Source: Rhodococcus tukisamuensis NBRC 100609
GTDB lineage: Bacteria; Actinomycetota; Actinomycetes; Mycobacteriales; Mycobacteriaceae
DNA length: 64,000 nucleotides
Assembly: GCF_001894985.1 (NCBI RefSeq)
Contig: NZ_BCXG01000022.1
Coordinates: forward strand, 1 to 64,000
Direction: 5' to 3'
How positions within the stretch are numbered: the stretch's first letter is position 1; each line of letters starts with the position of its first letter. Both the position numbers and the translations under genes were made by a program. Below the pieces are notes generated by a model, which was not told the origin of the DNA, did no database searches, and was given only the letters and a program-made list of their open reading frames with translations. This document shows, piece after piece, positions 28,705 to 38,812 of this stretch.

Positions 28705-28924
28705 CGAAGAGACCCTTCGGTATTCGTGGTTGAACCCGTGCTGATCACTCTGCGTCACCATTGCGCTGCCGAACCCGCGCCCGCGTCCGTCGAACCGCCG
28801 GTTTCTCCCCGCGGGCACCGGGCGCGTACCAGGCACTTTACCCAATCCGGGGGTCCAAATATGGATCCGGCGAGTCATGGGTTACGCTAACCCCGCCCAA
28901 TGGCACGCCGGAAGTTTTCGGCGG

Positions 28925-30622: not shown

Positions 30623-31735
30623 TCAGCGCAGCGGTTCGATGATCGCGGTGATCGCCGCGATCGCCGCGCCCGAGATCGCGAAGTGCTCGGTGATCGACAC
30701 CGTGAGCGTGCCCTCGCCGGAGCGCATGTCGAGCAGGAAGCGGGCCACCACCTGGGCGCCCCACTCGTTCAGCTGGAGGTCCCGGATCCCGGTGATCGGC
30801 TCGTACTGGTGACCGTGCTCGAGCTCGTACCGGATCTCCTCACCGCTGCTGCCGGTGCGCTGGCCGTTCTCCACCCGGAGGCAGTTCTCCGCCAACCGCA
30901 CCTTCGAGGCGTCGTGGGTGACGAGCGAGTCCAGGTACTCGCGGACCAGCGCCACCGACTGGCTGCCCGCCGCCGCGGTGAGCGTCGCAATCTCGCCCAG
31001 CAGCGTGCCCGCCACCTCGGGGCGGCAGATGAGCAGGTCCGGCAGGTAGGGACGGGTCTCGTTGTAGCGCAGCGCACTACCGTCCACCCGGGAACAGTGC
31101 AGCCCGGCCGCCTGGGCAACGCCGACCGGCGCAGCGGAGTCCCACTCCCACTGCCCGCCGGCGTGCACGTACGCGTCCGCCTCTCCGCGCAGCACCGCCA
31201 TCGCCTTCGCACCCGCCGAGCCCATCGGGACCAGCTCGGCATCGACGCGGTGGGCCAGCTCCGTGACGAATGCGGGTGGGCGGCTGCCGCTCACCAGGAT
31301 TCGGAGCGGCCCGGGCGCGCGCTCGGCGAGGCCGACCGCGCCGGAGGTGTACACCGCACCCAGTGCGGGCTGCGCCACCGCCGCCTCGGTGATCCCGCGG
31401 CCACGCTCCCACAGCGCCACGTGCACGGCCCAGTCGTCGCGGCCCGGCAGCCCGTACTCCTTGGAGCCGTCGAGGGGGTCGATGATCCACACGCGATCCC
31501 GGTCGAGTCGCGCCAGGTCGTCGGCCGACTCCTCGGAGAGCACGGCGTCGGCGGGACGCCCCTCCGCGAGGAGGTCGAGGAGCAAGGTGTTGGCCTCCTT
31601 GTCCCCACGCCTCCCCAGCTCCCGCGCCTGGGCCGGGTCGAGTGGGGTGGAGCCGAGCTCCCCGGCACGGATCTCGGTCAGCAGCTCACCCGCACGGGCG
31701 GCCAGGTCGGCGGCAAATTCGGCGTCGGCGTTCAT
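30623..31735 (-). CDS. cysQ: CysQ-type PAP phosphatase fused to an NTF2-like domain
   Basis: Residues 1-255 are an inositol-monophosphatase-fold CysQ, which hydrolyses 3'-phosphoadenosine 5'-phosphate (PAP) to AMP. It has the metal-site SEES at 67-70, [12 protein letters not shown] at 83-94 and WEWDSAAP at 196-203. CysQ normally ends near here. The frame continues without a stop through a short TAAAGSQS linker into about 108 residues (263-370, [22 protein letters not shown] onwards) that look like an NTF2/SnoaL-type domain found as separate proteins in mycobacteria. ATG 31735 overlaps the cysNC stop by 4 bp. PAP removal fits the sulfotransferase operon nearby. Confidence 0.88.
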
Positions 31736-33594
31736 ATCGAAAGATATTCCACGATCCGCACGGCCTGCGCAGCCGGATCGCCGTCCTCGGGCGTCAGCAC
31801 CAGTTCGGCGTGCTCGGGCCGCTCGTACGGGTCGTCGACTCCGGTGAAACCGGTGATCTCCCCCGCCCTCGCCTTGGCGTACATGCCCTTCGGGTCCCGG
31901 GCCTCGCACTGCTCGATCGGGGTGTCGACGAAGACCTCGACGAACGGGATCCCGGCCGCCTCGTGCTGGGCCCGCACCCGGTCTCGGTCCTCCCGGTAGG
32001 GACTGATCAGCGAGGCCACCGCGATCACTCCCGCGTCCGCGAGCAGCTGCGCCACCTCCCCCACCCGGCGGACGTTCTCGGCCCGGTCGTCGGCGCTGAA
32101 TCCGAGGTCCGAGTTGAGTCCGTGCCGGAGGTTGTCTCCGTCGAGCCGGTAGGCCGGCACCCCGGCCGCGACCAGTCGACGTTCGAGTTCCACGGCGACG
32201 GTGGACTTCCCCGACGCCGACAGTCCGGTCAACCAGACGGTGGCACCGCGGGTGGCCCGCTCCTCGCGGGAGACCGCGGCGGAGTGCCACACCACCTTCG
32301 ACTCCTTGAGCGTCGGCCCGGTGATCATCCCGGCCGCGACGGTCGCGCCGGTGGCCTCGTCGACCAGGATGAAGCTGCCGGTGACGCGGTTGCGGCGGTA
32401 CGGGTCGAACAGCAACGGCTGCTGCGTCTTGAGCTGCACGCGGCCGATCTCGTTGAGCTGCAGGCGGTCCGCGGACTCGTCGCGGTGCAGGGTGTTGACG
32501 TCGAGCCGGTAGTCCAGGCTCACCACCTGCGCCTTGGTGGACCGGGTGGTGTGCAGCAACGAGTACCGCGCGTTCTCGCTCAGTGCCGACTGCTCGGTGA
32601 GCCAGCAGACCATCGCGTCGACCTCCTGGCCGACGAGGGGGCGGTTGTTCGGCCGGCACAGCATGTCGCCGCGGCCGATGTCGATGTCGTCGGCGAGCTG
32701 GACGCAGACGGCCGACGGCGCGAACGCCTCCTCGACCGGCACCCCGCCCGGACCGTAGACGGCCGCGACGGTGGACGTGAAGCCGGACGGCAGCACCATC
32801 ACCTCGTCGCCCGCCTTGAACACGCCGCTGGCGACGGTGCCCGCGTAGCCGCGGAAGTCATGCAGCGCGGCGTCGGTCTGCTGCTGCGGGCGGATGACGT
32901 ACTGGACCGGGAAGCGCGCGTCGATCAGGTTGCGGTCCGAGGCGATGTGCACCTCCTCGAGGTGGTGCAGCAGCGACGAGCCCTCGTACCAGGGCATGTT
33001 CTCGGTGCGGGTGACGATGTTGTCGCCCTTGAGCGCGGAGACCGGGACGAAGGTGAGGTCGTGGATGTCCAGCTTGATCGCGAACTGCCGGAACTCCTCC
33101 TTGATCTCCTCGAAGCGCTCCTGCGACCAGTCGACCAGGTCCATCTTGTTCACGCACAGCACCAGGTGCGGGATGCCGAGCAGGGTGGAGAGGAACGCGT
33201 GCCGCCGGGTCTGTTCGAGCACGCCCTTGCGCGCGTCGACCAGGATCAGCGCGAGATCCGCGGTGGACGCGCCGGTCACCATGTTGCGGGTGTACTGCTC
33301 GTGTCCGGGGGTGTCGGCGACGATGAACTTGCGGCGCGGCGTGGCGAAGTAGCGGTGTGCGACGTCGATGGTGATGCCCTGCTCGCGTTCGGCGCGGAGG
33401 CCGTCGGTGAGCAGCGCCAGGTCGGCGTACTCGTCGCCGCGGGCGCGGCTGGTGCGCTCGACGGCCTCGAGCTGGTCCTCGAAGATCGACTTGGAGTCGT
33501 AGAGCAGCCGACCGATCAGCGTGGACTTGCCGTCGTCGACACTGCCCGCGGTGGCCACCCGGAGCAGCTGGAGTTGATGCTGGGACTGCGCCAT
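31732..33594 (-). CDS. cysNC: Sulfate adenylyltransferase subunit 1 / APS kinase fusion
   Basis: A bifunctional 620-residue protein of sulfate activation. The N-terminal EF-Tu-like GTPase (CysN) has the P-loop GSVDDGKST at 17-25, the switch DTPGHEQY at 94-101 and NKMD at 149-152. It drives APS synthesis with CysD. The C-terminal APS kinase (CysC) begins near 450 with P-loop GLSASGKST at 457-465 and makes PAPS. ATG 33594 overlaps the cysD stop by 1 bp (TGATG), and its stop overlaps cysQ. The CysNC fusion is the usual mycobacterial arrangement. Confidence 0.97.
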
Positions 33595-34520
33595 CAGAAG
33601 TACCCCTCCTTCTTGCGGTCTTCCATCCCGGCCTCGGAGATGCGGTCGTCGGCGCGGGTGGCGCCGCGCTCGGTGATGCGGCTGGCGGCCACCTCGGTGA
33701 CCACCTCGGCCGCGGTGGCCGCCGAGGACTCGACACAGCCGGTGCAGGTGGCGTCGCCGACGGTGCGGAAGCGGACCAGCTCGTCGCGGGCCTCCTCACC
33801 GGGCAGCAGCGTCAGGAAACGGGTCTGCGCCAACAGCATTCCGTCGCGCTCGACCACCGGCCGGCGGTGCGCGTAGTAGATCGACGGCAGCGCGATGTCC
33901 TCCTCGAGGATGTACTGCCAGATGTCGAGTTCGGTCCAGTTGGAGATCGGGAACACCCGGATGTGCTCGCCCTTGCGGTGCCGGCCGTTGTAGAGGTTCC
34001 ACAGCTCGGGACGCTGCGCGCGCGGGTCCCACTGCCCGAATTCGTCGCGGAAGCTGAACACTCGCTCCTTGGCCCGTGCCTTCTCCTCGTCCCGGCGGGC
34101 GCCACCGAAGACCGCGTCGTAGCCGTTCTCCCGGATCCCCCGCAGCAGGGTGTGGGTCTGCAGCCGGTTGCGGCTGGCCCGCGGACCGGTCTCCTCCACC
34201 ACGCCGCCGGAGTCGATGTCGTCCTGCACCCCGGCGACCACCAGTCGCAGCCCGAGTCGCTCGACCGTCTCGTCCCGGAACGCGATCACCTCGTCGAAGT
34301 TGTGCCCGGTGTCGACGTGCATCACCGGGAAGGGCAGCGGCGCCGGCCAGAAGGCCTTGGCCGCGAGGTGCAGCATCACCACCGAGTCCTTGCCCCCGGA
34401 GAACAGGAGCGCAGGCCGCTCGAAGGTGGCCGCCACCTCCCGGAATATGTGCACCGACTCCGCCTCGAGCGCACCCAGATGGGTGAGCTCGTAGGCCGGT
34501 GGGGAGTGGAGGGTTGTCAT
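33594..34520 (-). CDS. cysD: Sulfate adenylyltransferase subunit 2
   Basis: The 308-residue catalytic subunit of ATP sulfurylase, converting sulfate and ATP to APS with CysN. The PP-loop SGGKDS is at residues 41-46, followed by the typical HVDTGHNFDEVIAFRD. ATG 34520, with GAGGAG 7 bp upstream, is chosen over the longer frame, which runs into the promoter/operator region. It heads cysD-cysNC-cysQ. Its upstream region carries two palindromes also found before the sulfotransferase operon. Confidence 0.96.
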   Translation of the reverse strand: MTTLHSPPAYELTHLGALEAESVHIFREVAATFERPALLFSGGKDSVVMLHLAAKAFWPAPLPFPVMHVDTGHNFDEVIAFRDETVERLGLRLVVAGVQDDIDSGGVVEETGPRASRNRLQTHTLLRGIRENGYDAVFGGARRDEEKARAKERVFSFRDEFGQWDPRAQRPELWNLYNGRHRKGEHIRVFPISNWTELDIWQYILEEDIALPSIYYAHRRPVVERDGMLLAQTRFLTLLPGEEARDELVRFRTVGDATCTGCVESSAATAAEVVTEVAASRITERGATRADDRISEAGMEDRKKEGYF

Positions 34521-34554: not shown

Positions 34555-34570
34555 GGTACATTTTTGTACC
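34555..34570. promoter_or_regulatory. Palindrome GGTACA-N4-TGTACC in the cysD leader
   Basis: GGTACATTTTTGTACC, a perfect 6+6 palindrome with a 4-nt spacer, 35 bp before the cysD start. From the predicted TSS it falls about +24 to +39. The same box (different spacer bases) precedes the sulfotransferase operon. It may be the operator of the adjacent IclR-family protein, or a small RNA stem-loop. The repeat is seen; the binding protein is inferred. Confidence 0.75.
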
Positions 34571-34599
34571 GGCCCGGTTCGAAACTGAAGTCTGCGCCG

Positions 34600-34628
34600 A
34601 CAATAGAACGCGTTCTAGGCCGGGTCAA
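34600..34628 (-). promoter_or_regulatory. cysD promoter with KstR-type operator
   Basis: On the minus strand TTGACC (34628-34623) and TATTGT (34605-34600) are separated by 17 bp, a good housekeeping-type promoter. Between them lies the perfect 14-bp palindrome TAGAACGCGTTCTA (34604-34617), which fits the described KstR motif TnnAACnnGTTnnA. It overlaps the IclR gene's stop codon. Binding there would block the promoter. Confidence 0.75.
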
Positions 34629-35577
34629 TCCCCTCCCGCACACTCGCGCGCTCGCGCCGGTCGGGCCATCGCCCGCCGACCTCGGCGGTCACGGCATCCG
34701 CGGCCGCGGCCAGCGCCTTCCCCCTGCGCGCAATCTCGGAGCCGGTGATCGACCCACCCACGTCCAGCGTCAGCACCAGCGCCTGACGTCCGTCCGCGTC
34801 GTAGACGGGCGCGGCGATCAGGCTCACCGGATGCTCTGCGTCGGAGGACATCTCACGACCGAGGTACACGCGCTCACCCAGGTTCGACACCATCTCGCCG
34901 AGCAGCTCACGAATCTCCGACGGCAGGTCGTGACCCGCGACGCCCTGCATGAGGGAGAAGAGCCGGCGGCCCATCGACGTCAACCGCTCGACGAGATAGC
35001 CCGCGTCACGGCAGTCCTCGACCACCTCTCGCAGCAGGTCACGGTCGAGCACCACGGGCAGCGTGGGCTCGCGCCGCAGCCACGCCTCGAGTTCCTCGTC
35101 GGCGCCCCACAGCACGTACATCAGCCCGACCGGTGGCGCGAAGGGGTACGCCTGGCCCACCTTGACCGTCATCCGACCGACCTTCACGCCGTCCGGCACC
35201 GCCACCTCGACGATCATGACCCGGTCCCCGACCACCGCGGACGCCGTGCAGACGGACCCGAACTCGGCGGCGAGACGGTCGAGCTGCGCCCGCGCGATCG
35301 GCCCGACCGCGAACCCGCGCTGCGCCGCCCGACCCGCCGCGATCAGGGCGGGGCCGAGCCCGTAGGTCTTGGCGCCGGAATCCCGGGTCAGGTATCCCCC
35401 GCCGACCAGCGCCGAGACGATGCCCAGGCAGGTCGGCTTGCTGATCCCGAGGGCCCGCGCGAGCTCCGAGAGCCCGAACCGCTGATCCGGGCGGGCGACC
35501 AGGTAGTCAAGCACGGCCATCACCCGCTCGGTGGGCGGCGAGCGACGCCCGGCGACGGCATCCGGTTCGGCAGCCAT
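34615..35577 (-). CDS. IclR-family transcriptional regulator
   Basis: A 320-residue regulator. The N-terminal winged helix-turn-helix (about 15-75, VMAVLDYLVARPDQRFGLSELARALGISKPT) is followed by an IclR effector domain (about 90-300, with IARAQLDRLAAEFG, YPFAPPVGLMYVLW and SLIAAPVYDADG). ATG 35577 is preceded by AAGGAG. Its ribosome site and start lie inside the promoter region of the divergent DUF1214-SDR-sulfotransferase operon, and its 3' end overlaps the cysD promoter. It is placed to control both arms and itself. The effector is unknown, possibly a steroid or acyl-CoA metabolite. Confidence 0.92.
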   Translation of the reverse strand: MAAEPDAVAGRRSPPTERVMAVLDYLVARPDQRFGLSELARALGISKPTCLGIVSALVGGGYLTRDSGAKTYGLGPALIAAGRAAQRGFAVGPIARAQLDRLAAEFGSVCTASAVVGDRVMIVEVAVPDGVKVGRMTVKVGQAYPFAPPVGLMYVLWGADEELEAWLRREPTLPVVLDRDLLREVVEDCRDAGYLVERLTSMGRRLFSLMQGVAGHDLPSEIRELLGEMVSNLGERVYLGREMSSDAEHPVSLIAAPVYDADGRQALVLTLDVGGSITGSEIARRGKALAAAADAVTAEVGGRWPDRRERASVREGIDPA

Positions 35578-35606
35578 TGACCACTCCTTAGAACACGTTC
35601 TATTGT
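35577..35606 (+). promoter_or_regulatory. Sulfotransferase-operon promoter with KstR-type operator
   Basis: TTGACC (35577-35582), an 18-bp spacer and TATTGT (35601-35606) form a good promoter. The 14-bp palindrome TAGAACACGTTCTA (35589-35602) sits in the spacer and touches the -10, as in the cysD promoter. It matches the KstR consensus TnnAACnnGTTnnA. The palindrome also covers the ribosome site of the divergent IclR gene. Confidence 0.78.
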
Positions 35607-35633
35607 CGGACCATCGCAGGTCCCTACCACGTA

Positions 35634-35649
35634 GGTACATATTTGTACC
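35634..35649. promoter_or_regulatory. Palindrome GGTACA-N4-TGTACC in the DUF1214-gene leader
   Basis: GGTACATATTTGTACC, the second copy of the box found before cysD. It is 22 bp before the GTG start and about +22 to +37 from the predicted TSS, and 57-72 bp upstream of the IclR start codon on the other strand, which would suit autoregulation. Confidence 0.75.
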
Positions 35650-35671: not shown

Positions 35672-36856
35672 GTGCTGACAGAACCACTGGCCGAGGCCAT
35701 TGCCGAGGCCGAGAAGCTCGTCGAGGCGGCGCCGCACATTCGGTCCGAACAGGACCTGCTCGAGGGCTACCAGTACCTCGCGGGCGGCATCCTGGCCACG
35801 GTGCACGCCGCCTGGGCCACCGAGAAGACGCATCCGGGTTTCATCCAGGGCACCGGTCCGTACACGAAGATGGGCCTGGACAACCCCGACACCCTGTACT
35901 TCGGCACCCGCGTCGACGACGACGCCGAGTACGTCGTCACCGGAACCCGGGGCACCACCTGCGACCTCAGCTTCCAGGTGCTCAGCGGCAACTACACCGA
36001 TTCCAACGTGCCCGGCAGCGCATCGGCGTTCGACGACCGGGACATCGACATCGATGCCGACGGCAACTTCGAGGTCCGATTCGGGCCCGCGGGTGGGGCG
36101 TGGGCCGAGAACGCGGCCGGGCGCCGCAACTACTTCACGCTCGCGCCGGGCGCATCACAACTGGTGGTGCGGGAGGTCTACAGCGACTGGTCCCAGCGCC
36201 GAGGCACCATCCGCGTCGAGCGCGTGGACCGCAGGGGCGTCCCGTTCGATCCGCTGACGCCCGAGGAGACGGCGAAGCGCTTCGCCCGCGCCGGCAAGGC
36301 CCTGGTCAGCAGGGTCAAGACGTGGCTGCAGTTCCCGGAGTGGTTCTACCTCAAGCTGCCGGTGAACACGATGACCGAGCCGCGGCTGACACCGGGCGGC
36401 CTGGCCACCCAGTTCTCCTCGGTCGGGCACTACGAGCTCGCCGACGACCAGGCGATGATCATCACCGTGCCGAAGTCCGACGCGCCGTACCAGGGTTTCC
36501 AGCTCGGGAGCATGTGGTACATCTCGCTGGACTACACCGGACACCAGACCTCGCTGAACAACACCCAGGCCCAGGCGGACCCGGACGGCATGATCCGCAT
36601 GGTGATCTCGGAGCGGAATCCGGGCGTCACCAACTGGATCGAGACCGTCGGCCACCCGCGCGGCATCCTGCAGTTCCGCTGGCAGCGCACCTCGCGGGAG
36701 TTCACGCCGGCCGACGGACCGACCGTCGAGGTGGTCGGCATCGACGAGGTCGCCGCGAAACTGCCCTTCCACGAACAGAACAAGATCACGCCGGAGGACT
36801 GGACCGCCCGCATCGCGGAGCGCCAGGCCGCCGTCGCCAACCGCATGCTCGGATAG
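35672..36856 (+). CDS. DUF1214-type protein of a sulfotransferase operon
   Basis: A 394-residue protein whose C-terminal third (about 275-345: SMWYISLDYTGHQTSLNNTQ, then NPGVTNWIETVGHPRG) resembles DUF1214. The N-terminal half (YLAGGILATVHAAW, GNYTDSNVPGSASAF) matches actinobacterial proteins of the Rv3531c kind. No signal peptide or membrane span. GTG 35672 has GAGGAG 7 bp upstream. It leads an SDR and a sulfotransferase, the same trio as Rv3531c-Rv3530c-Rv3529c in the M. tuberculosis cholesterol region as I recall it. Biochemical function unknown. Confidence 0.8.
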   Translation: MLTEPLAEAIAEAEKLVEAAPHIRSEQDLLEGYQYLAGGILATVHAAWATEKTHPGFIQGTGPYTKMGLDNPDTLYFGTRVDDDAEYVVTGTRGTTCDLSFQVLSGNYTDSNVPGSASAFDDRDIDIDADGNFEVRFGPAGGAWAENAAGRRNYFTLAPGASQLVVREVYSDWSQRRGTIRVERVDRRGVPFDPLTPEETAKRFARAGKALVSRVKTWLQFPEWFYLKLPVNTMTEPRLTPGGLATQFSSVGHYELADDQAMIITVPKSDAPYQGFQLGSMWYISLDYTGHQTSLNNTQAQADPDGMIRMVISERNPGVTNWIETVGHPRGILQFRWQRTSREFTPADGPTVEVVGIDEVAAKLPFHEQNKITPEDWTARIAERQAAVANRMLG

Positions 36857-36864
36857 GACTCACC

Positions 36865-37647
36865 GTGACAAACCTGTTGCAGGACAAGATCGTCGTCATC
36901 TCCGGGGTCGGACCCGCACTGGGCCGCACACTGGCGTTGCGCTGCGCCGCCGCCGGCGCGGACGTGGTGCTGGCCGCCCGGACGCAGGCCCGGCTCGACG
37001 AGGTGGCAAAGGAGGTCACCGACCTCGGCCGGCGTGCGGTCACCGTCGCCACCGACATCACCGACCAGGACTCGGCGGAGCACCTGGTCGCCGCCAGCGT
37101 CGAGGCGTACGGCCGGGTGGACACCCTGGTCAACAACGCCTTCTCCGTACCGTCGATGAAGCCGTTGGCGCGCACCGACTTCCAGTCCATCCGCGACGCC
37201 GTCGAGCTGACGGTGCTCGGCGCGCTGCGGCTGACGCAGCTGTTCACCCCGGCACTCGAGGAGTCCAAGGGGTCGGTGGTGAACATCAACTCGATGGTGC
37301 TGCGGCACTCGCAGGAGCGCTACGGCAGCTACAAGATGGCCAAGGCGGCCCTGCTGGCGATGTCGCAGTCGCTCGCGACCGAACTGGGCCCCAAGGGAAT
37401 CCGGGTCAACTCGGTGGCGCCGGGCTACATCTGGGGCGACACCCTCAAGGGGTATTTCGCACACCAGGCCGAGAAGTACGGCATGACGGTCGAGCAGATC
37501 TACCAGGCCACCGCCGCAAACACCGACCTCAAGCGGCTGCCCGAGACCGAGGAGGTCGCGGACGCGGTGCTCTTCCTCGCCTCCCCGATGGCCAGCGCAG
37601 TCACCGGGCAGTGCCTCGACGTCAACTGCGGCGAGTTCCACCACTAG
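36865..37647 (+). CDS. Short-chain dehydrogenase/reductase
   Basis: A 260-residue classical SDR. The nucleotide loop is SGVGPALG at 13-20, slightly unusual for GxxxGxG. VNNAF replaces NNAG at about 89-93. Catalytic Ser143 and Tyr156-x3-Lys160 are present. The C-terminus ends TGQCLDVNCGEFHH. GTG 36865 is 8 bp after the DUF1214 gene and 13 bp before the sulfotransferase. It probably oxidises or reduces a hydroxyl/keto group on the same substrate that is sulfated; the substrate is not evident. Confidence 0.88.
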   Translation: MTNLLQDKIVVISGVGPALGRTLALRCAAAGADVVLAARTQARLDEVAKEVTDLGRRAVTVATDITDQDSAEHLVAASVEAYGRVDTLVNNAFSVPSMKPLARTDFQSIRDAVELTVLGALRLTQLFTPALEESKGSVVNINSMVLRHSQERYGSYKMAKAALLAMSQSLATELGPKGIRVNSVAPGYIWGDTLKGYFAHQAEKYGMTVEQIYQATAANTDLKRLPETEEVADAVLFLASPMASAVTGQCLDVNCGEFHH

Positions 37648-37660
37648 AAGGTCGAGACAG

Positions 37661-38812
37661 ATGACTGAACGCACCAGTGCCGAGCGGACGACCGTCGGCA
37701 CCGTCGAGGACCTGCACGCCTCGGCCACCAAGATGACCGGGCTGACCGACTTCGGCGTCGACGACTACACCGAGGCCCTCGGCGTCCTGCTCGACTCCTA
37801 CGCCCGGGACGAGGACCTGACCCCGTTCGGCAGCAAGATCTCCCGGGTGTTCCTGCGCGGCGCGCTGGTGGCCCGGCTGCTGTCCGAGGCCGCGTGGAAG
37901 CAGCATCCCGAACACGCCGGCGTCGCGATCGAGCGGCCGATCTTCGTCACCGGCCTGCCCCGCACGGGCACCACCGCCCTGCACCGGCTGCTCACCGTCG
38001 ACCCGGCCCACCAGGGCCTGGAGATGTGGCTGACCGAGATGCCGCAGCCTCGGCCGCCGCGCGAGAGCTGGGGGTCGAACCCGGTCTTCCAGGGCATCGA
38101 GGCCCAGTTCAGCAAGCACCACGTCGAGCACCCCGAGTTCATGGGAGTGCACTACATGTCGGCCGCCGAGGTCGAGGAATGCTGGCAGCTGCTGCGGCAG
38201 ACCTTCAAGTCGGTCTCCTACGAGTGCCTGGCCAACCTGCCCACGTACTCGAAGTGGCTCGAGGGGCAGGACTGGACGAACGCCTACGAGCGGCACAAGA
38301 AGAACCTGCAGCTGATCGGGCTGCCCGATCGCGACCGCCGGTGGGTGCTCAAGAACCCGAGCCACCTGTTCGCGCTCGACGAGCTGCTCGCGGTGTATCC
38401 CGACGCGCTGATCGTGCAGACCCACCGCGCGCCGAGCACCATCATCCCGTCGGTGTGCAGCCTCGCCGAGCAGGCCACCGACGGCTGGTCCAACAAGTTC
38501 AAGGGCGAGGTGATCGGCCGCAGTCAGCTCGAGCTGTGGGCGCGCGGTCTCGAGCAGTTCACCGAGGCGCGGGCCCGGCACAACCCGGCGCAGTTCATCG
38601 ACGTCGACTACCACGACTTCGTCGCGGACCCGCTCGGCACGGTGGAGGGCATCTACACCACGTTCGGCCTGCCGCTGACCTCCGCCGCGCAGGGCGCGAT
38701 GGAGGCCATGCACGAGGAGAGCCACAGCGGGCCGCGCCGCCCCTCGCACAAGTACACCCTCGAGGAGTTCGGGCTCACCGCCGCCGAGGTCGAGGAACGT
38801 TTCGGCGCCTGA
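37661..38812 (+). CDS. PAPS-dependent sulfotransferase (Sulfotransfer_3 type)
   Basis: A 383-residue cytosolic-type sulfotransferase. The 5'-phosphosulfate loop PIFVTGLPRTGTTALH is at 93-108. The 3'-phosphate-binding region follows (VQTHRAPSTIIPSVCSL, with conserved Arg and Ser, near 265-281). It should transfer sulfate from PAPS to a hydroxyl acceptor. Actinobacterial members of this clade accompany steroid or lipid genes, and the closest context is Rv3529c. The divergent arm encodes PAPS synthesis and PAP removal. The operon ends at a hairpin 8 bp downstream. Confidence 0.9.
   Translation: MTERTSAERTTVGTVEDLHASATKMTGLTDFGVDDYTEALGVLLDSYARDEDLTPFGSKISRVFLRGALVARLLSEAAWKQHPEHAGVAIERPIFVTGLPRTGTTALHRLLTVDPAHQGLEMWLTEMPQPRPPRESWGSNPVFQGIEAQFSKHHVEHPEFMGVHYMSAAEVEECWQLLRQTFKSVSYECLANLPTYSKWLEGQDWTNAYERHKKNLQLIGLPDRDRRWVLKNPSHLFALDELLAVYPDALIVQTHRAPSTIIPSVCSLAEQATDGWSNKFKGEVIGRSQLELWARGLEQFTEARARHNPAQFIDVDYHDFVADPLGTVEGIYTTFGLPLTSAAQGAMEAMHEESHSGPRRPSHKYTLEEFGLTAAEVEERFGA

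Follow-up and report, generated by a model that had tools for sequence, protein, structure and literature searches.

The window analysed here, a stretch of 64,000 nucleotides, probably carries a dedicated sulfation module under two-input control: two divergent operons, one for the synthesis of PAPS and the probable removal of PAP, the other for the use of PAPS. The promoters of the two are built alike, and we consider it probable that KstR, of steroid catabolism, and a local IclR-family protein, encoded between the operons, serve this module as two repressors. The parts of this reading differ in strength. That KstR and the IclR protein are the two inputs seems very likely for the right arm, which begins with a DUF1214-like gene, and likely for the left arm, which begins with cysD; on whether both act by repression our judgement is evenly poised.

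The left arm lies on the minus strand. It comprises cysD (33594..34520; start codon ATG at 34520), for the small subunit of ATP sulfurylase (TIGR02039, 456.9 bits; cut-off 396.6), cysNC (31732..33594), for the large subunit fused to APS kinase (NF004035, 985.6 bits; cut-off 715), and a gene for a CysQ-like phosphatase of the inositol-monophosphatase family (30623..31735, its start inferred from the open reading frame; PF00459, 95.2 bits). This last protein scores 80.5 bits against TIGR01331, under the cut-off of 228.8, and is likely a PAP phosphatase. The right arm, on the plus strand, comprises the DUF1214-like gene (35672..36856; start codon GTG at 35672), an SDR oxidoreductase gene (36859..37647, start tentative; NF005909, 436.6 bits, cut-off 258), and a gene for a PAPS-dependent sulfotransferase (37661..38812; PF13469, 202.2 bits; PDB 2zq5, E=2.8e-165). 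The label DUF1214, given in a first-pass annotation, is a weak one, PF06742 reaching 16.8 bits against a cut-off of 25; the protein belongs to the family of MSMEG_5932, to judge from PDB 6ans (E=2.2e-32), the sole solved relative found and itself uncharacterised, and from the primer-encoded peptides described below. ATP sulfurylase, APS kinase and sulfotransferase occur together at this locus, and the gene content agrees with the earlier proposal that the arms between them make PAPS, use it and remove PAP. Between the arms, on the minus strand, lies the gene for the IclR-family regulator (34615..35577; 320 aa), in which the HTH domain (HTH_IclR, 32.8 bits; cut-off 22) and the C-terminal domain (IclR_C, 25.8 bits; cut-off 24) both exceed their thresholds. 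It falls outside the PcaR/PcaU/PobR subfamily, scoring 43.0 bits against the TIGR02431 cut-off of 284.75.

The common build of the two promoters can be read directly: 5' to 3', TTGACC, then TAGAACRCGTTCTA overlapping TATTGT, then the palindrome GGTACA-N4-TGTACC (the ‘box’). TAGAACRCGTTCTA sits in both within the spacer between the predicted −35 and −10 elements (17 bp on the left, 18 bp on the right) and runs into the −10. In the left promoter, on the minus strand, the predicted −35, TTGACC, is at 34623..34628 (TTGAC is kept in this footprint in related loci), the KstR motif TAGAACGCGTTCTA at 34604..34617, the predicted −10, TATTGT, at 34600..34605, and the two inner half-sites of the putative IclR-type operator, GGTACAAAAATGTACC (GGTACA-AAAA-TGTACC), at 34555..34570. 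The KstR palindrome here overlaps the −10 and contains the stop codon of the IclR gene. In the right promoter, on the plus strand, the −35 is at 35577..35582, the KstR motif TAGAACACGTTCTA at 35589..35602, the −10 at 35601..35606, and the putative operator GGTACATATTTGTACC (GGTACA-TATT-TGTACC) at 35634..35649; this promoter contains the start and ribosome site of the IclR gene. Both operators were assigned from sequence and comparison. From the centre of the KstR-type palindrome to that of the box is 48 bp in the cysD promoter and 46 bp in the DUF1214-like promoter. When the window was shuffled and up to two mismatches were allowed, two KstR-type matches arose in 0/100 shuffles, and two boxes in 6/100. 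The five-part layout common to the two promoters, the centre distances, and the position of the IclR gene, with its ribosome site and 3' end within the promoter regions, had all been put forward in the first-pass annotation, and direct reading and the coordinates bear them out. Missing from it was a third half-site before each box: GAACC at 34576..34580 on the minus strand in the left promoter, its ACC 5 bp before the box, and CTACC at 35624..35628 on the plus strand in the right, likewise 5 bp before.

With this element the operator takes the form ACC-N5-GGTNCA-N4-TGNACC, three half-sites in alternating direction. An IclR ortholog occurs in 133 of 301 family genomes (E<=1e-40), and from these we hand-picked 100 IclR neighbourhoods in 99 genomes, G001 contributing two, with every one of the 15 matching genera represented; for right-arm counts a locus without the DUF gene (L169) was left out and the window added, giving n=100. 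If a box is anything within one mismatch of GGTNCAN4TGNACC, for which the Markov null is 0.6 percent, 92 of the 100 right promoters with IclR have one, in 13 of the 15 genera; of the eight without it, six are g29 loci, one is a g13 locus and one a paralog (L168). In 83 of 101 loci, the window included, the fetched flank contains CysD—it is outside in g9, g13, g14, g20 and g29 loci, and several kb further out in two of ten g30 loci—and the box is present in 67 of these 83 left promoters, the other 16 including all of g16 (4), g22 (6) and g26 (1). The box is preceded by ACC at a distance of exactly 8 bp in 88 of the 92 right arms, and in 67 of the 67 left arms that have the box; at six neighbouring offsets ACC occurs 0 or 1 times each. 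Eleven further loci, ten from other families and one Rhodococcus bin (L249), were found via the box, and are left out of the 92/100 and 88/92 figures and of the Fisher comparison below. IclR-family operators with three alternating half-sites are already known, according to the part of Suvorova and Gelfand (2021, PMC8222616) drawn on here, where it is also stated that PcaU binding needs the third half-site, and that IclR proteins as a rule control neighbouring operons as well as their own. The comparison thus supports the second palindrome as the putative operator of the IclR-family protein whose gene separates the arms. The recognition helix of these IclR proteins is nearly constant, (I/L/M/V)(S/A)KPT.L, and for this reason its covariation with operator variants was dropped as a line of inquiry.

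From these elements we infer binding and repression by both proteins, and an AND logic. In the absence of steroid, KstR would cover the −10 of both promoters. A steroid-derived inducer would cause KstR to leave, and the IclR-family protein, on its three-half-site operator just downstream of the predicted start, would still block transcription until its own ligand arrived. A steroid signal would then have to coincide with a pathway-specific one for the operons to be expressed. The IclR protein would most likely be the second, local repressor, and it is probably autoregulated, since its gene starts inside the same region. Alternatively, the IclR protein could be a ligand-dependent activator, or activator and repressor both, with KstR the sole repressor. 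We think this unlikely, but it deserves to be taken seriously. Activators and dual regulators figure in the family in the excerpted text of PMC8222616, and in eight of ten g29 loci (L170–L175, L177, L178) the IclR-type palindrome is found upstream of the −35, the reverse of the Rhodococcus order; GKTYCRN4YGRAMC occurs in all ten within one mismatch, and exactly in seven, in a search run without a chance control. The g29 arrangement looks like a natural rewiring of the promoter, and given the activator-like position of its palindrome, the sign of IclR action may differ, or have been misjudged, in the window. In the window itself, however, as in the aligned loci of Rhodococcus, Prescottella and other families, the operator is found downstream of the predicted −10, a position from which activation would be hard.

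Other groups depart from the layout in other ways. The g30 loci have the KstR site directly against the operator, the starts of the two being 21 bp apart in 10/10. In g14 (L164–L167) the box and third half-site are kept and the KstR site is absent in 4/4; kstR is encoded in these genomes, and loss of the site through loss of the regulator was therefore rejected. The variants in g30, g29 and g14 imply that the two-input geometry is not fixed, though both inputs are usual. In two further modules the palindromes are of the TTCCATAT type and there is no good match to the KstR motif: L168 (G001, contig C39), a paralogous cysD-IclR-DUF-SDR-sulfotransferase module, and L109 (G017, contig C44), a divergent IclR-DUF-SDR-sulfotransferase module. 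It is as if the steroid input had been added to a module controlled by IclR only.

The box keeps close company with the IclR gene. Exact GGTACAN4TGTACC occurs twice in this 5.49-Mb genome, both times at this locus; one mismatch adds one further place, and the backward-read control gives 0. That place (C15:47052) has the spacer GGTG, lies within a called ORF, and was rejected as a regulon member. So were the degenerate one-mismatch boxes at 28852 and 40828 of the window, for which the background is 2.1 per 64 kb and which are not at the same place in five other g1 loci; the first, GGTCCAAATATGGATC at 28852–28867, has one mismatch to the degenerate box and lies at the 5' end of a called phosphoketolase ORF. 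On the question of genome-wide scatter, raised in the first-pass annotation, the answer is divided: in this genome the box is confined to the locus, but in relatives exact copies occur elsewhere too. Among the matches listed, 49 of 75 exact boxes in relatives adjoin an IclR ortholog and 26 do not. Around seven exact boxes away from IclR (L203–L209), tblastn found no gene of the module, save a weak luciferase-like similarity at L208 and L209. In four g6 genomes (L204–L207) the exact box lies around the start of a very long ORF, unrelated to the module. Two g9 genomes (L208:6625 and L209:6613) have GGTACAAAAATGTACC ahead of a luciferase-like ORF; the L209 copy is inside a long inverted repeat and looks like a different element.

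The DUF gene occurs in 226 of the 301 genomes, more than have the IclR ortholog, and 20 DUF loci without an adjacent IclR gene were picked by hand. One of them (L273) is a second DUF copy in a genome, G017, that has IclR at another place; two others (L274, L275) have a distant IclR homolog (27–31 percent) 3.6–4.4 kb away. No box is found within 130 bp of the DUF gene in any of the 20, and widening the range to 320 bp yields two, which belong to left arms: G292 (one mismatch) and G059 (exact). The contrast with loci that have IclR, 92/100 against 2/20, gives a Fisher p of 2e-13, phylogeny being ignored. The conservation that had been predicted for species keeping the gene pair is thus found, 92/100 against complete loss from the DUF promoter in the 20. 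KstR sites lie within 130 bp in many of the same loci: 8/20 are exact and 11/20 are within two mismatches, and the other nine (g9, g11, g13, g18, g19, g22) have none at that stringency. In two g27 genomes without IclR (G145 and G204), decayed boxes stand beside exact KstR sites; the other fetched g27 members keep IclR. Loss of the operator at the DUF promoter appears, then, to accompany loss of IclR, and KstR sites appear often to outlive it. In six of these loci (L267–L269, L273, L276 and L277; g11, g13, g19 and g9) the DUF-SDR-sulfotransferase trio closely follows another frame, with no KstR site or box. This frame, read by eye, ends ...TWTG..TW(L); a script search for a frame of that form gave no match.

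Could some other regulator bind the box? Microtetraspora sp. NBRC 16547 retains an intact composite (L227:985-1200) beside an IclR gene reduced to about 32 codons that resemble the C-terminal end, and G059 keeps its exact left box without IclR. Against this, the box adjoins the IclR gene, is lost with it at the DUF promoter, has no other exact site in the genome, and has a half-site arrangement of the kind ascribed to IclR operators in the portion of PMC8222616 cited above. We judge a different regulator improbable, and take the IclR protein to be the likely ligand of the box.

The first palindrome had been said to fit the KstR motif, and it does: exact TAGAACNNGTTCTA is present in both arms, and matches the motif TnnAACnnGTTnnA given in the portion of PMC1995591 available to us. 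The whole genome has six exact sites, two of them at this locus. At one mismatch or fewer there are 20 sites, against 13 in the backward-read control, so that single one-mismatch sites mean little; eight of the 14 one-mismatch sites are on contig C2, and some adjoin hsaA, a steroid 3-ketoacyl-CoA thiolase gene and a MlaE-type permease gene. KstR itself is encoded (NF033703, 338.5 bits; cut-off 280), with an exact motif just upstream of its gene (L193), and the NF033703 cut-off is exceeded in 80 of 80 genomes examined and in none of 14 control genomes. According to the same portion of that paper (Kendall 2007, PMC1995591), the Rv3531c/Rv3532 motif binds KstR by EMSA, and MSMEG_5932, marked as the Rv3531c ortholog, is up 6-fold in a kstR mutant. 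The two primers published there for MSMEG_5932 encode TSLNGT and KGYLQF; both peptides occur in eight of ten g29 DUF proteins, and similar forms occur in the DUF1214-like protein of the window. By extension, KstR would act on the cysD promoter also. Conceivably the palindrome serves a different TetR protein instead, for KstR-like paralogs under the NF033703 cut-off exist, one of 113.6 bits here and others of about 190–232 bits in g23, g27 and g29. The exact published motif, the KstR equivalog in the genome, and the action of KstR on the orthologous DUF operon in mycobacteria, as described in the excerpts of PMC1995591, argue for KstR, and a different TetR protein is perhaps a shade less probable than a different regulator of the box.

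The pairing of the two sites reaches well beyond this genome. A scan of a collection of 84,980 species for the composite—a box, 18–40 bp, and the KstR consensus—returned 48 stretches, 46 of them beside genes of the sulfation module. Thirty-six of the 46 are in Rhodococcus or Prescottella, R. jostii and R. erythropolis among them, and ten are outside the Rhodococcus family: Microtetraspora (3), Microbispora, Sphaerisporangium, Actinomadura, Actinophytocola, Amycolatopsis (2) and Kutzneria. (Microtetraspora belongs to the Streptosporangiaceae, Kutzneria to the Pseudonocardiaceae, and Actinomadura to the Thermomonosporaceae.) The two remaining stretches, in Hymenobacter and in a Flavobacteriales bin, lack module genes nearby and look like chance. 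The two arms of the window are almost the same in TTGACC, the KstR palindrome and TATTGTCGG, and the likeness of the promoters might for that reason be put down to recent copying of one arm from the other; but the arms in other genera keep the elements each with its own spacer, flanks and box variant, and we give this explanation little credence. An origin by copying may even be true, but the copy would then have been kept by selection. Least probable of all, to the point of being negligible, is the RNA version of the dual-input control proposed in the first-pass annotation (‘KstR plus IclR or RNA’, of which KstR plus IclR is supported): a 6-bp stem could form in both predicted 5' UTRs, but position 4 is not Watson–Crick in 36 of 103 right boxes (the 11 box-found loci counted) or in 20 of 67 left boxes, the third half-site is outside the hairpin and yet as constant, the leaders fold with z-scores of only −0.65 and −1.26, and the element precedes the promoter in eight of ten g29 loci, which leaves it out of the DUF transcript.

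The left arm matters in part for what the rest of the genome lacks. APS kinase has one match in the genome (PF01583, E<=1e-20), and this is the cysNC of the module; of 80 genomes examined, 30 likewise have the module-linked APS kinase as the sole copy found. Contig C15 carries a second CysD-CysN pair that lacks APS kinase and adjoins a gene resembling sulfite/nitrite reductase (below the model cut-off); in the 17.9 kb around this pair there is no box and no KstR consensus. Assimilation and PAPS supply therefore look separate, and since the module holds the only APS kinase found, PAPS supply itself seems to sit behind the double switch, unless an internal operon promoter serves APS kinase.

Steroid catabolism in actinobacteria has been studied as a carbon pathway, and sulfation is, to our knowledge, outside the usual picture of it. 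The present locus suggests that steroid use and sulfate tagging are probably linked: the conserved KstR link to the genome's only APS kinase implies that cells using steroids have a need for sulfonation, and the substrate is presumably steroid-derived. A wider reading, offered tentatively and given rather less than an even chance, is that PAPS-making capacity is committed to a single steroid-linked pathway. KstR, sensing steroid catabolism, and IclR, sensing a pathway intermediate, would release PAPS synthesis and use together, and the product would be an undescribed sulfated metabolite derived from a steroid; the circuit would have been conserved across Rhodococcus, Prescottella, Pseudonocardiaceae, Streptosporangiaceae and Actinomadura, and rewired in another genus, where the IclR operator moved upstream. 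At the least, the locus names a condition—growth on steroid, or deletion of kstR or iclR—for seeking the product of the uncharacterised DUF-SDR-sulfotransferase trio, supplies a putative operator for an IclR group on which we found no study in the open-access literature, and, with its relatives, forms a natural series in which regulators are lost and promoters rewired.

The coupling had been thought undescribed. This is correct in part: KstR control of the DUF/sulfotransferase arm is already known in mycobacteria, from the passages of PMC1995591 cited, whereas for KstR on cysD-cysNC, or for an IclR input, we found no description in the open-access literature. The words cysD, cysN and IclR have 0 occurrences in the main text of PMC1995591, and the portions of PMC7846781, PMC4881515, PMC8281962, PMC10540951, PMC6429209 and PMC8557817 consulted do not describe the coupling; the last of these was not among the results of a literature search for KstR and sulfotransferase, and ‘IclR’ is absent from its text.

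Several known systems resemble this one in part. The M. tuberculosis protein of PDB 2zq5, named there only ‘Putative uncharacterized protein’, matches the sulfotransferase of the window over nearly its full length. We take it to be Stf1 (Rv3529c), for which we know of no substrate. The mycobacterial Rv3531c/MSMEG_5932 operon, as far as the excerpts of PMC1995591 describe it, has a gene of the same DUF family under the same motif; here a PAPS operon and a local IclR are added. In R. qingshengii IGTS8, CysN2C-CysD2 with Stf0 similarly places a second, PAPS-making ATP sulfurylase beside a sulfotransferase, but these proteins come from dibenzothiophene cultures and are discussed as a sulfite route in the part of PMC8557817 seen. 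The three-box operators of PcaU, PobR and HmgR, as given in the excerpts of PMC8222616, share with those described here a set of three half-sites that alternate in direction. In sequence the half-sites are similar to those published, most of all in g29 and g30, and the spacings, N5 and N4 here, are one or two bases off those of GKTYCRYW3-4RYGRAMC and TGRAACAN1-2TGTTYCA. The present operators differ in that their half-site is GGTNCA, with A common at position 4, and in that a KstR site accompanies the operator at a narrow distance.
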